Assembly (NCBI RefSeq): GCF_019798055.1
Contig: NZ_JAHOPH010000001.1
Span: forward strand, 62,001-126,000
DNA length: 64,000 nucleotides
Origin: Salsipaludibacter albus
Lineage (GTDB): Bacteria > Actinomycetota > Nitriliruptoria > Nitriliruptorales > Nitriliruptoraceae
Direction of reading: 5' to 3'
A program made the translations under genes and the position numbers. Positions 33,881 to 39,392 of this stretch are shown here, one piece after another. A model generated the notes under the pieces. That model was not told where the DNA came from. It ran no database searches and saw only the letters and a program-made list of their open reading frames with translations. Numbering within the stretch: position 1 is the first letter of the stretch; each line of letters opens with the position of its first letter.

Positions 33881-34735
33881 TCAGCCGGGCAGGCGGACCA
33901 GGTCGTCGTCGACCACGGCCAGGCCGTCCGCCACGACACCGGCCAGCATGGCCGCCACGCGGTCGGGATCGTCCCAGTCGACCACGTCCGCGACCGCCTC
34001 GCGTGCCACGGGGCCGGAGGCGAGCGCAGCGACCAGCCGGCCACGCCCCTGGCGGTCCGAGCCCTCGAAGGTCGACTGTGGCGTGGTGGTGAAGGCCGTC
34101 CCGGTCACCGGGTCCGGTCCGCCCCGTTCCCGCCAGGCGCACGTCACCGCGACCCGGCAGGAGCCGCAGTCGGGCGACCGCTTCGTGCAGGTCGTCGCAC
34201 CGTGCTCCATGACCGCCTGGTTGTAGGCCCACGACCGGCCGTCGGGCACCAGGTCGTCGGCCAGCGCCTGGACCTCGCGTGCCCCGAGCGAGCGCCCGGC
34301 CACGGCGCGCGCGAGCACGCGTGCGACGTTGGTGTCCACGACCCCGTGGTGCTGCTCGTGGGCGAAGACCGCCACCGCCCGGGCCGTGTACGGCCCGACG
34401 CCCGGCAGCGCCAGCAGGTCGTCGAGGTCGTCGGGGACCTCGCCGTCGTGGTCGGCCACGATCGCGGTGGCGGCACGGTGCAGGTTGACGGCCCGGCGGT
34501 TGTAGCCCAGGCCCTGCCACAGGGCGATGACCTCACCGACCGAGGCGTCGGCACAGTCGGCCGGCGTCGGGAACCGTGCGAGGAACTGGTGGAAGCGGGG
34601 CACGACCCGGGTGGTCTGGGTCTGCTGGAGCATCGTCTCGCTGACCAGCACGGCCCACCCGTCACGGGTCCGGCGCCACGGGAAGTCCCGCAGGTCCTCC
34701 GACAGGGCGAGGACGGCGTCGACGAACGCCACCAC
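33881..34735 (-). CDS. mutY: A/G-specific adenine glycosylase, short form
   Basis: A 284-residue MutY that removes adenine mispaired with 8-oxoguanine. The catalytic Glu is in SETMLQQTQ, the helix-hairpin-helix is LPGVGPYTARAV, the catalytic Asp follows in VVDTNVARV, and the iron-sulfur loop is C-x6-C-x2-C-x5-C (CTKRSPDCGSCRVAVTC). The C-terminal NUDIX-like 8-oxoG recognition domain is missing; about 80 residues of other sequence follow the cluster. The start is 5 bp from the DtxR-family stop. Confidence 0.92.
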   Translation of the reverse strand: MVAFVDAVLALSEDLRDFPWRRTRDGWAVLVSETMLQQTQTTRVVPRFHQFLARFPTPADCADASVGEVIALWQGLGYNRRAVNLHRAATAIVADHDGEVPDDLDDLLALPGVGPYTARAVAVFAHEQHHGVVDTNVARVLARAVAGRSLGAREVQALADDLVPDGRSWAYNQAVMEHGATTCTKRSPDCGSCRVAVTCAWRERGGPDPVTGTAFTTTPQSTFEGSDRQGRGRLVAALASGPVAREAVADVVDWDDPDRVAAMLAGVVADGLAVVDDDLVRLPG

Positions 34736-34739
34736 CCCG

Positions 34740-35393
34740 CTACCCGATCTCGGTCACGTAGAGGAAGGGGGCGGACTCGTCGAAGATCTCCACCTCGCCC
34801 TCCGGGCCCACCAGCACCACCTCGGCGTCGCGCCGCACGTCGACCTCGGTGCCCGGGGCGATCATCGCGTCGGCCAGCGCCGCCATCAGGCCGTGCTCGG
34901 ACTGGATGCGCTCGGAGATCCGCTCGAGTCGGACTCGCGGCGCGTCCGACTTCGACAACGGGAGGACCGTGTAGTCGTCGGCCGGCCCACCCGGGATGGG
35001 ATTGCCGTACGGCGAGGTCGTCGGGTTGCCGAGGAACTCGACCAACCGGGCCTCGACCCGATCCGAGATCACGTGCTCCCAGCGACACGCCTCCTCGTGG
35101 ACGTGCTCGTGCTCGACGCCCAGGACGTCGACCAGCAGGCGCTCCGCCAGTCGGTGCTTGCGCATGACCCGCATGGCGAGGTCGCGTCCCTCGTCGGTCA
35201 GCCCGACGGTGCGATCGTCCTCCATGGTCAGTTGGCCCTCGTCGATCATCCGGCGCACCCCCTCGGAGACGCTCGGGGCGCTCAGCCCCAGCCGCTCGAC
35301 GAGTCGGGCGCGCAGGGCCGGGATGCCCTCCTCCTCCAGTTCGAGGACGGTCCGCAGGTACATCTCCTGTGAATCGATGAGTCCCTCGGACAT
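34740..35393 (-). CDS. DtxR/IdeR-family metal-dependent repressor
   Basis: A 217-residue regulator. The N-terminal winged helix-turn-helix (LVERLGLSAPSVSEGVRRM near residue 32) is followed by the dimerisation and metal-binding domain (RKHRLAERLL, EEACRWEHVISD) and a C-terminal SH3/FeoA-like domain from about residue 145. IdeR and MntR/SirR-type members both fit. An IdeR-like box lies in the promoter of the next upstream gene (cupredoxin lipoprotein), making iron sensing the better guess. Alternative GTG starts one or two codons upstream exist. Confidence 0.92.
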   Translation of the reverse strand: MSEGLIDSQEMYLRTVLELEEEGIPALRARLVERLGLSAPSVSEGVRRMIDEGQLTMEDDRTVGLTDEGRDLAMRVMRKHRLAERLLVDVLGVEHEHVHEEACRWEHVISDRVEARLVEFLGNPTTSPYGNPIPGGPADDYTVLPLSKSDAPRVRLERISERIQSEHGLMAALADAMIAPGTEVDVRRDAEVVLVGPEGEVEIFDESAPFLYVTEIG

Positions 35394-35476
35394 CACCACT
35401 CCCGGTCGCCGGTGCCTGGGTCGAGCGTAATCGTGCAACGCCCGACCGGCCCCGGTGCTGCCGCGAGGGTCGCTGG

Positions 35477-35500
35477 TGTCCGCCCACCGCATGGCGGGCG
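35477..35500. terminator. weak hairpin between cupredoxin and DtxR-family genes
   Basis: A short GC stem with CGCCC and GGGCG arms lies just after the cupredoxin gene stop. No T-run. It may partly separate transcription of the lipoprotein gene from the regulator gene downstream. Confidence 0.3.
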
Positions 35501-35509
35501 AGCCGCGGC

Positions 35510-36088
35510 TCAGTCCACGGTGAGCGTGCCGAGCATCCCCTTGGCGGCGTGGGTCTCGCCGTCGGCGGCCTCGACGATGCAGAACAGCGTGTAGTCGCCC
35601 TCCTCGAGCTCCCAGGTCGCGTTGCACGTCCGGCCAGGGCCGTAGGCCTCCAGTTCGAAGGCACCAGCCGCGGCCAGGGCGTCCTCGTCGGGCGCGCCGT
35701 CGTCGGTCAGCGGCACGTCGCCGCCACCCGGGAGCACGGCGAACTCGTGGGCCTCGCCCCCGTCGTTGCTCGTGGCGAAGGTCACGATCCCGGCCTCGAC
35801 CTCGAGGTCGGACGGGTCGAAGGCGTAGTCGGCCAGGGAGACCTCGACGGTCTCGTCGGCCTCGCCCTCGAGGTCCTCGCCCACCGGTGCGCACTCCTGC
35901 TCGGCGGCGGCCACCGCCGAGCCGGATCCGCTGCCCGAACCCGAGCCGGACCCACTGCCCGACCCCGACCCGGAGACCGAACCTTCGGATCCGAGCGAGG
36001 TGACCTCGGCCTCACCTCCACAGCCGGCGAGGACCAGGGTGGTCGCGAGGACTCCGACGAGCAGGGTCAGGTGGCGCGTGGACGACAT
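35510..36088 (-). CDS. cupredoxin-like lipoprotein with Ser-Gly repeat
   Basis: A 192-residue lipoprotein. The signal peptide ends at the lipobox LAGC (Cys23). Residues about 39-57 are a Ser-Gly dipeptide repeat forming a flexible tether. The C-terminal 120 residues form a cupredoxin-like beta sandwich with likely type 1 copper ligands: His in EAHEFAVL, Cys in YTLFCIV, His in ETHAAK and Met in KGM. Such domains carry electrons or help iron/copper uptake. The promoter contains an iron box, so expression is probably induced under iron limitation. Start ATG at 36088. Confidence 0.88.
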   Translation of the reverse strand: MSSTRHLTLLVGVLATTLVLAGCGGEAEVTSLGSEGSVSGSGSGSGSGSGSGSGSGSAVAAAEQECAPVGEDLEGEADETVEVSLADYAFDPSDLEVEAGIVTFATSNDGGEAHEFAVLPGGGDVPLTDDGAPDEDALAAAGAFELEAYGPGRTCNATWELEEGDYTLFCIVEAADGETHAAKGMLGTLTVD

Positions 36089-36118
36089 CGTGGAGACTCC
36101 GGGGCTGGCGTGGGTAAG

Positions 36119-36137
36119 TTAGGTTGGCCTAACCTTA
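36119..36137. promoter_or_regulatory. IdeR/DtxR iron box
   Basis: The 19-bp site TTAGGTTGGCCTAACCTTA matches the actinobacterial IdeR/DtxR consensus at about 17 positions. It lies 31-49 bp before the cupredoxin lipoprotein start and covers the predicted -10 element. Confidence 0.88.
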
Positions 36138-36161
36138 GTCTCGGCTCCCCGGTCGTGCCAA
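36132..36161 (-). promoter_or_regulatory. promoter of cupredoxin gene, overlapped by iron box
   Basis: On the minus strand TTGGCA (36161-36156) and TAAGGT (36137-36132) are 18 bases apart. The -10 element lies inside the iron box, so metal-loaded repressor would block RNA polymerase. Confidence 0.5.
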
Positions 36162-36171
36162 CTCGCCCCGC

Positions 36172-36726
36172 TCAGTCCGATGGGCTGTCCCAGTCGTGGA
36201 CGTCGCGGCCCGCCTCGCGCGAGATGATGTCGATCGCGGCGGCGGCACCCCACCCCGCGGAGATGATCGCCTGGCTGCGCTCGGGGCGGACCAGGTGGCC
36301 GGCGGCGTAGAGCCCGTCGACCGTGGTCTGCGCGTCGCCGTCCACCACGACCGCCCCGTCGGCGACCTCGGCACCGGCACGGGCGGCCAGCGACTGGCTC
36401 TCCTTGCCACCGGCGATGACGACGTAGTCCACCTGGACCGGCGCGGCGTCCTCGTCGGGGGTGACGGCGAAGCCCTCGTCGTCCTCGTCCACGGCGACCA
36501 CCGTCGACGACACCAGCGTGGCGCCGGCGTCCGTGGCCTGCTGGCGGGCCGTGTCCATGAACGCCGTGCCGTCGGCGTCCGGTCGGCCGAGGTAGTTGTG
36601 CAGCTCGGCGAACTCCACCAGGGAGTCGTCGTCGCCGTACACGGTCGTGTCGTGGCCGTTCTTGGCCAGGAACAGGGCGGCGCTCAGTCCGGCGGGGCCA
36701 TCCCCCACCACGGCGATGCGTGCCAT
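36172..36726 (-). CDS. short FAD-dependent oxidoreductase-like protein
   Basis: A 184-residue protein related to the FAD half of thioredoxin-reductase-like enzymes. The dinucleotide motif GDGPAGLSAALFLA is at residues 8-21 and the C-terminal FAD motif is TVDGLYAAGHLVRPE. The NADPH-binding insert and the redox-active CxxC of thioredoxin reductases are absent. Because the frame is intact and both ends are motif-bearing, it is a compact protein rather than a broken one. It lies between clpC and the iron-box-controlled lipoprotein gene. Confidence 0.8.
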   Translation of the reverse strand: MARIAVVGDGPAGLSAALFLAKNGHDTTVYGDDDSLVEFAELHNYLGRPDADGTAFMDTARQQATDAGATLVSSTVVAVDEDDEGFAVTPDEDAAPVQVDYVVIAGGKESQSLAARAGAEVADGAVVVDGDAQTTVDGLYAAGHLVRPERSQAIISAGWGAAAAIDIISREAGRDVHDWDSPSD

Positions 36727-36805
36727 CGGTCACTCCTTCGCGTCGTTTCCCCAAGGTGTATCGCCACTTCGACAACGGCGACCCCATCGACCGACCAGGC
36801 ACGCG

Positions 36806-36834
36806 ACGACCCCGGCCATGGGGGCCGGGGTCGT
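36806..36834. terminator. hairpin terminator after clpC
   Basis: A perfect 12-bp stem (36806-36817 with 36823-36834) and 5-base loop lies 21 bp beyond the clpC stop. It separates clpC from the FAD-protein gene. Confidence 0.65.
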
Positions 36835-36854
36835 GGTGTGGTGGTCAGGAACTG

Positions 36855-39392
<2,538 letters not shown>

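Follow-up and report, generated by a model that had tools for sequence, protein, structure and literature searches.

We have analysed a 64,000-nucleotide stretch of DNA, referred to here as the window, in which a gene for a cupredoxin lipoprotein is preceded by an iron box of the DtxR/IdeR type, and this gene seems to be part of an undescribed system for iron uptake in actinobacteria that have been little studied. Taken as a whole, the observations are best explained, with a probability that we put at roughly 0.55, by an iron-repressed copper lipoprotein that would serve a ferric ABC transporter of the FutA/FbpA type through oxidation of Fe(II). The box, the family of the regulator, the fold and ligands of the cupredoxin, the regulon as shared by boxes and the clustering with ABC transporter genes in relatives were computed directly. 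The features are collected in Table 1, in which gene identities at the boxed loci were assigned by eye wherever no Pfam scan was made.

Table 1. Features of the cupredoxin locus and of the boxed loci of the same genome
Feature	Location	Strand	Remarks
DtxR/IdeR-family repressor (dtxR)	34740-35393	-	217 aa
Hairpin	35480-35501	-	9-bp stem, directly 3' of cupredoxin stop codon, no T run
Cupredoxin lipoprotein	35510-36088	-	192 aa; lipobox, Ser/Gly repeat, cupredoxin domain
Cupredoxin domain	35513-35893	-	residues 66-192; ligands H114, C170, H180, M185; extra Cys pair C66/C155
Lipidation Cys23, tag motif CGGEAEVTSLGSEG, Ser/Gly repeat	35903-36022	-	residues 23-62
DtxR/IdeR box TTAGGTTGGCCTAACCTTA	36119-36137	.	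1 mismatch; 30 bp 5' of cupredoxin ATG
Thioredoxin-reductase-like flavoprotein, shortened	36172-36726	-	184 aa; between clpC-like gene and cupredoxin
Boxed locus	contig C1		cupredoxin lipoprotein, box 36119-36137
Boxed locus	contig C15		FutA/FbpA-type ferric binding protein, permease, ATPase (L058)
Boxed locus	contig C23		ABC ATPase (by eye), Peripla_BP_2, FecCD, siderophore-interacting protein (SIP)
Boxed locus	contig C34		SDR epimerase and 456-aa membrane protein (GT-C-like); divergent: LPG_synthase_TM-like frame (by eye), GT2
Boxed locus	contig C46		Bfd and ferritin-like protein
95-aa tagged lipoprotein	L058:11929-12216 = G000 C15 13928-14215	-	signal peptide, tag, Ser/Gly-rich repeat only

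Iron boxes in the window and in the host genome

The window lies on contig C1 of a 4.25-Mb genome assembly (79 contigs, 97% complete). We scored sites against TWAGGTWAGSCTWACCTWA, which we take to be the DtxR/IdeR consensus, and found that the box upstream of the cupredoxin gene is the sole site in the window with 3 or fewer mismatches; a site of this quality was present in none of 100 shuffled versions of the window. Over the whole genome, 5 such sites were found, of which this box is the best, and the reversed pattern, used as a control, gave none at the same threshold. The near-perfect IdeR/DtxR box of the original prediction is thus confirmed. Its predicted overlap with the promoter agrees with its position relative to the ATG, and it is from this position that we infer the overlap, since a consensus scan of 34500-37000 recognized no sigma-70-type promoter; no terminator was recognized in that segment either.

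The binding protein of the transporter on contig C15 has as its closest solved counterparts an Fe(3+) ABC binding protein (7li0, E = 1.6e-82) and an iron transport protein (2pt1, E = 1.2e-73), and contains an NHYY-type tyrosine pair, to which we presumptively assign the role of the pair in FutA-type binding proteins. For two transporters of this kind, binding proteins match solved Fe(3+)-binding proteins with best E values of 1.6e-82 and 5.3e-75. The 95-aa tagged lipoprotein gene of the same contig is convergent with the ferric ABC genes, and its start is preceded, at a distance of 29 bp, by a 4-mismatch box. As described below, relatives of this organism hold many of these genes in one cluster; in the window genome the set is split across three boxed loci, and the cupredoxin gene is not adjacent to the ABC genes.

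The DtxR-family regulator

A PF02742 profile search of the genome returned one protein, the dtxR product, which passes the Pfam cut-offs both for PF01325 (44.5 bits, cut-off 26) and for PF02742 (108.6 bits, cut-off 27). Among NCBIfam models, it scores highest against that of the actinobacterial iron repressor DtxR (NF053665), with 224.8 bits and thus below the equivalog cut-off of 290, and next against an MntR model with 102.1 bits; its closest PDB sequences are solved DtxR/IdeR proteins. The iron-type ligands of DtxR/IdeR we take to be Met10, Cys102, Glu105 and His106, and His79, Glu83, His98, Glu170 and Gln173. Upon alignment with the DtxR-family repressor 7b1v, all nine of these metal ligands are kept in the dtxR product (M11, C103, E106, H107, H80, E84, H99, E161 and Q164), the primary-site Cys being among them. 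At the recognition-helix position that we take to be Gln43 of DtxR, the dtxR product has a Glu, as read by eye from the alignment.

A second, more distant DtxR paralogue is present in many relatives of the same family, and none was found in the window genome. One such paralogue, a partial call at L102:1384-1863 (-) (G001 C153), is divergent from a ferric ATPase gene with a box between the two; by eye (VHDEAEAWGLEVS vs VHEEACRWEHVIS) it is without the primary-site Cys, Glu and His.

Iron control of the cupredoxin gene, as had been predicted, finds strong support in the IdeR-type ligands of the sole DtxR-family protein found and in the five boxes, all of which are located at iron genes or at genes that in relatives are grouped with iron genes. 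It is very probable, as judged from these sequences, that the cupredoxin gene is controlled by iron through a DtxR-type regulator that would bind the box.

Boxes and neighbouring genes in relatives

We compared the regions upstream of 26 cupredoxin genes, comprising those from 21 of the 51 genomes with a match (our own included) and 5 of 9 loci from other assemblies (the remaining four represent genomes already in the set), with those of 396 other genes from the same loci. A site with 4 or fewer mismatches within 150 bp upstream was present for 12 of the 26 cupredoxin genes and 13 of the 396 background genes (p = 6e-10), and for 11 of 25 when the window's own gene was removed (p = 5e-9), although these p-values, like those for co-occurrence below, are inflated by the relatedness of the genomes and serve as a guide only. 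At 3 or fewer mismatches the counts were 8/26 and 8/396. One locus (L012) offered only 37 bp of upstream sequence, and the gene starts of L009, L010, L013 and L014 were set by hand. Several of the background hits adjoin cluster boxes or belong to a tagged lipoprotein (L115). Among the 14 cupredoxin genes that missed, two (G042 and G055) sit behind an SDR gene that has its own box; others are those of G091, G053 and G037 (5 mismatches), and the distant homologues of G088, G080, G002 and G086. The five orthologues from other actinobacterial assemblies (L064, L065, L067, L068 and L069) had no box with 4 or fewer mismatches, their best sites having 5-8, and are located away from the cluster among unrelated neighbours; the GT-C-like gene described next is present in 2 of these 5 genomes (G151 and G153) and was not found in the other three.

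In many members of our set of relatives (149 genomes, or 150 with our own), the cupredoxin gene belongs to or adjoins a cluster of ferric ABC transporter, SDR, LPG_synthase_TM plus GT2, and GT-C-like genes. The last of these encode a membrane protein with a DEPxYL motif that is invariant in 20 of 20 aligned rows, and we call it GT-C-like because a DE motif is typical of GT-C enzymes. A Pfam match to PMT_2 was obtained for 1 of the 20 members, the distant L116, at 26.1 bits, which equals the cut-off; an AlphaFold model made from two sequences was poor (mean pLDDT 42), and a profile of the family gave no match among solved structures in the PDB. In L070, a single protein of 999 aa combines the DEPxYL part with LPG_synthase_TM and GT2.

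The GT-C-like gene (E ≤ 1e-50) was found in 23 of the 149 relatives and the cupredoxin (E ≤ 1e-10) in 20; both were present in 17, the cupredoxin only in 3, the GT-C-like gene only in 6 and neither in 123 (p = 1e-14, inflated as noted). At the stricter threshold of E ≤ 1e-14 for the cupredoxin, all 15 relatives that had it also held the GT-C-like gene. By coordinates compared by hand, the two genes lie within 7 kb of each other in 10 of the 17 relatives with both, and in 7 of those 10 a ferric-type binding protein is present as well. For 18 of the 23 relatives, such a binding protein is encoded no further than ~6.5 kb from the GT-C-like gene; in the five others the neighbourhood is cut off by a contig edge (G017, G049 and G091) or none was shown (G048 and G053). 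GT2 or LPG_synthase_TM was near the GT-C-like gene in 19 of the 23. From this neighbourhood and co-occurrence we regard a part for the cupredoxin in iron uptake as probable.

Some individual clusters deserve description. The first two of these count against our explanation, as do the five orthologues without a box and the separate location of the cupredoxin gene in the window genome. The binding protein of the G095 cluster (L044) has phosphonate binding proteins as its best NCBIfam models, at scores far below cut-off, and a PDB search ranks ferric ones first. A near orthologue of the cupredoxin gene (G057 C121) adjoins genes that are ModABC-like by eye and by SBP_bac_11, and an identity as iron transporter was dropped for these. 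The G047 cluster, which gave no cupredoxin match, has an EfeB-type deferrochelatase/peroxidase (L114:13995-15236) beside the ferric ABC genes, and a siderophore-interacting protein. A flavin amine-oxidase-type protein recurs beside the cluster (L044:393-1778, L106:9235-10578, L109:5979-7280 and after L115:720); among those of L044 and L106, which were scanned with Pfam, that of L044 gave a weak match to UDP-galactopyranose mutase.

The N-terminal tag and the Ser/Gly linker

The lipobox of the cupredoxin protein reads LAGC and ends in Cys23. In relatives, the lipidation Cys begins a tag of general form C-x-DDGA-x-VRxI that is followed by a Ser/Gly/Thr/Ala repeat, and the tag of the window protein is a weak version of it. 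Proteins that bear the tag comprise cupredoxins, Fea1 lipoproteins, a G047 protein whose mature form has 366 residues, and short lipoproteins that consist of the linker only (G000 C15, G002, G035, G054 and probably G057 C157). A Fea1 lipoprotein is encoded in the cluster of G055 and beside the GT-C-like gene of G017; the Fea1 model matched 4 relatives and nothing in the window genome. Using a search pattern that was written after the sequences had been seen, we found 23 tags in the fetched loci, 17 of which have an upstream box with 4 or fewer mismatches.

A model built from 20 tags (A6), applied in some genomes to a maximum of 50 first-look candidates, was matched in all 23 relatives that hold the GT-C-like gene and in 1 of the 126 that do not, among the matches listed and at a threshold (E ≤ 1e-5, with the match reaching beyond the signal peptide) that was chosen after the list was seen. 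When the 17 relatives that had supplied rows to the model were removed, the counts, again among the matches listed, were 6/6 and 1/126 (p = 1e-9, inflated likewise). Two cases were borderline: G051 at 1.0e-5, and G108, which is without the GT-C-like gene, at 1.2e-5 with a match to signal-peptide positions 1-21 only. The sole tag without a GT-C-like gene, that of G044, is at a contig end and by eye is preceded by the same gene order as in G049 and G057, where this order leads to cupredoxin and GT-C-like genes, so that the GT-C-like gene of G044 may be absent from the assembly. A Ser/Thr/Gly/Ala run of at least 11 residues follows the lipobox in 14 of 19 cupredoxins where the genome has the GT-C-like gene and in 0 of 14 where it does not, a count that omits the broken gene of L014 and leaves L036 unscored. 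The cupredoxin of L064 has no long repeat after its lipobox, and that of G151 is without such a linker in a genome where the GT-C-like gene is present.

This near-perfect pairing of tag and GT-C-like gene suggests a dedicated, iron-regulated system for lipoprotein modification, and on this basis we propose, tentatively, that the linker may be modified by the co-regulated glycosyltransferase-like proteins. A reading that has a substantial chance of being correct, if somewhat short of even, is that these genes instead make an iron-regulated envelope glycolipid, with the linker a plain spacer unrelated to them. LPG_synthase_TM and GT2 partners are also found in glycolipid pathways, the GT-C-like family is almost without recognized relatives, as described above for PMT_2 and the PDB, and the case of G151 would also be accommodated. 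Against glycolipid synthesis, tag and GT-C-like gene occur together almost without exception across the 149 relatives (among the matches listed), and lipoproteins exist that consist of the tagged linker and nothing more.

The broader proposal that follows from linker modification by GT-C-like proteins is one that we advance as possible rather than probable. Nitriliruptoria-type and related Actinomycetota may have an undescribed iron-acquisition system, in which an iron-repressed FutABC-type transporter has a dedicated line for lipoprotein modification, made up of an SDR sugar enzyme, a GT2, a flippase-like LPG_synthase_TM protein and a GT-C-like transferase, that would recognize C-x-DDGA-x-VRxI and decorate the Ser/Thr/Gly repeat. 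The tag would then act as a carrier module that stands alone or is joined to a copper redox domain or a Fea1 domain, and the lipoproteins made of the linker only would serve purely as carriers of glycans, either trapping iron or spanning the envelope.

The cupredoxin domain

Pfam scores for the cupredoxin domain fall just short of the cut-offs, at 23.6 bits for Cupredoxin_1 (PF13473, cut-off 27) and 20.5 bits for Copper-bind (PF00127, cut-off 21.2). The predicted structure is nevertheless confident, with blocks of residues 71-192 at pLDDT 92-98 and residues 61-70 at 83, and together with the lipobox it supports the predicted assignment of the gene to a cupredoxin lipoprotein. The closest folds are those of auracyanins (Z 12.9), the EfeO Cup domain (12.5), a B. 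anthracis Cupredoxin_1 protein, azurins, AcoP, FtrB (11.2) and rusticyanin (10.7). The four ligands (H114, C170, H180, M185) show no variation in two alignments with overlapping sets (A1, 13 of 13 rows; A3, 9 of 9 rows), nor does C155, and C66 is nearly invariant. The ligand loop has the form C-x9-H-x4-M in 6 of the 13 rows; in the remaining 7, which are more distant, it is C-x12/13-H-x4-M. The domain has the type-1 ligand set and a cupredoxin fold and would be loaded with copper, and the invariance of the H, C, H, M set in 13/13 rows suggests selection for a copper site.

In three loci (L043, L053 and L056, with the cupredoxin genes G052 C95, G057 C70 and G058 C237), a stop or a shift of frame interrupts the cupredoxin reading frame within the repeat or close to it, which may reflect either assembly error or slippage. 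The window genome also encodes a second cupredoxin lipoprotein (L061:7950-8363, G000 C18), in which the ligand loop is compact (C-x4-H) and a linker of this kind is absent; its gene is divergent from that of a 660-aa membrane protein, P-type ATPase-like by eye.

A domain of this type might bind metal without performing redox work, as a chaperone that holds iron or copper for the FutA-like protein or for another partner. The placement of the EfeO Cup domain among the closest folds would be in keeping with such a role, as would the presence of the tag on Fea1 lipoproteins that have no cupredoxin, from which the shared task may be iron capture at the surface. We consider the chaperone role unlikely, however, given that the full type-1 ligand set is invariant in all 13 rows.

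The original prediction had offered, as one of two roles, replacement of an iron-dependent electron carrier, in which the copper protein would stand in for a cytochrome c or ferredoxin under iron shortage. Auracyanins and other blue copper electron carriers are its closest sequence and fold matches, and iron control would suit such a swap; yet the recurring neighbours are ferric ABC transporter and glycosyltransferase-like genes, and no respiratory or photosynthetic partner was recognized among the neighbours, of which a minority was family-searched. We found no support for this role and regard it as improbable.

Gene order downstream of the cupredoxin gene

The dtxR gene lies downstream of the cupredoxin gene on the same strand, as had been predicted, with a gap of 116 bp. 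The hairpin in this gap (region z-score -2.7, equalled by 3 of 200 shuffles) is possibly a terminator or processing element between the two genes. An operon of the two genes is weakened both by this hairpin and by a gene order that is rarely kept in relatives; co-transcription is left as a candidate only, since the hairpin may end or process the transcript. Location of the cupredoxin gene beside its probable repressor holds in the window genome and in G066 and is not generally conserved among relatives. It is very improbable that the box serves autoregulation of dtxR by read-through with the cupredoxin as a passenger, close as dtxR is on the same strand, because boxes precede cupredoxin genes where dtxR sits elsewhere in the genome and a strong hairpin separates the two genes here. 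The gene for the thioredoxin-reductase-like flavoprotein is 5' of the cupredoxin gene in the window and 3' of it in G001, a relative of the same genus.

Proposed mechanism

Of the two roles originally offered, the iron-uptake branch is supported and the spare-carrier branch is not, because boxes recur and the cupredoxin clusters with GT-C-like and ferric-type genes. We propose that iron-loaded DtxR would sit on the box and be released upon iron shortage, so that the lipoprotein is made. The product would be exported and lipid-anchored, and would display a type-1 copper domain at the surface on its Ser/Gly linker, the repeat of which, if our reading of the tag is right, would be modified by the co-induced modification line. 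Outside the membrane, the copper domain would then accept a single electron from Fe(II), and the Fe(III) so formed would be handed to the FutA-like protein and imported by the ABC transporter, whose genes have the same kind of box. The steps that we infer are the binding of DtxR to the box, the loading of the domain with copper, the oxidation of Fe(II), the transfer to the FutA-like protein and the modification of the linker.

The periplasmic oxidation of ferrous iron for uptake that had been predicted is thus upheld as to uptake, by neighbourhood and co-occurrence, and the oxidation itself, as judged from the type-1 ligands and the modelled fold, has about an even chance of being correct. The electron would pass on to the respiratory chain or to O2; to our knowledge, a single type-1 copper cannot reduce O2 on its own, and no electron acceptor was identified in the gene neighbourhoods examined.

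Relation to known systems

Neither a cupredoxin with a part in iron uptake nor an ABC transporter under iron control is new in kind. The window protein resembles EfeO of the EfeUOB system in its cupredoxin fold (7wgu_B, Z 12.5, 1.7 A over 89 residues), its extracytoplasmic location and its link to iron uptake. It differs in having no M75 domain by Pfam, in its intact H-C-H-M ligands and in its FutA-type ABC partner. A search for the FTR1 permease (EfeU; PF03239) gave 0 matches in the window genome and matches in 4 of 14 control genomes. A published model of the EfeO Cup domain includes a copper site, and the domain is assigned there to iron uptake (PMC9174327).

FtrB of the FtrABCD systems of Brucella and Bordetella is likewise a single cupredoxin domain tied to Fe(II) uptake, and is reported to oxidize Fe(II) in vitro (PMC11966278). 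According to the same source, FtrB is without the His-His-Cys site, is said to use D118/H121 and has an FTR1-type permease as partner (PMC11966278), whereas the window protein keeps His-Cys-His-Met in a genome without a match to such a permease. Excerpts of that report mention no tag or Ser/Gly linker for FtrB (PMC11966278).

Auracyanins and rusticyanin are the best fold and profile matches. Their ligand set, which we take to be the same H, C, H, M as here, is joined by a different loop: Cys and His are separated by 9 residues in the window protein (12-13 in distant rows), with an 8-residue gap in the aligned auracyanin 6kol. The window cupredoxin is also set apart from them by iron-box control. 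The binding protein, permease and ATPase of the regulon resemble FutABC/FbpABC down to the tyrosine pair, and differ in that the relatives' genes cluster with SDR, GT-C-like, LPG_synthase_TM plus GT2 and tagged lipoprotein genes. FEA1-related lipoproteins (NCBIfam NF038033) share the N-terminal tag and linker and, in G055, the cluster, and have another C-terminal domain (PF07692).

Actinobacterial Pmt and Ppm1 we presume to be, by class name, a GT-C enzyme and a polyprenol-phosphate-mannose synthase. The two modify secreted proteins including lipoproteins; Pmt is described as glycosylating lipoproteins among other proteins in Streptomyces, at sites with Ala/Pro/Gly-rich surroundings (PMC6593405). 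The genes described here differ from these in the scarcity of PMT_2 matches within the GT-C-like family (1 of 20 members), in their iron boxes and in the one shared tag.

Among the matches listed from the open-licence PMC literature, we met neither a type-1 cupredoxin with a FutABC-type system under DtxR, nor the tag, nor its pairing with a GT-C-like gene. If our interpretation is correct, FutABC-type ferric uptake in actinobacteria would gain a branch assisted by copper, and a pathway of protein modification would be linked to the supply of iron by a short tag that is directly testable. The tag also permits annotation of otherwise nameless lipoproteins, and those that consist of the linker only raise the question of what role a glycan carrier would have in iron uptake.
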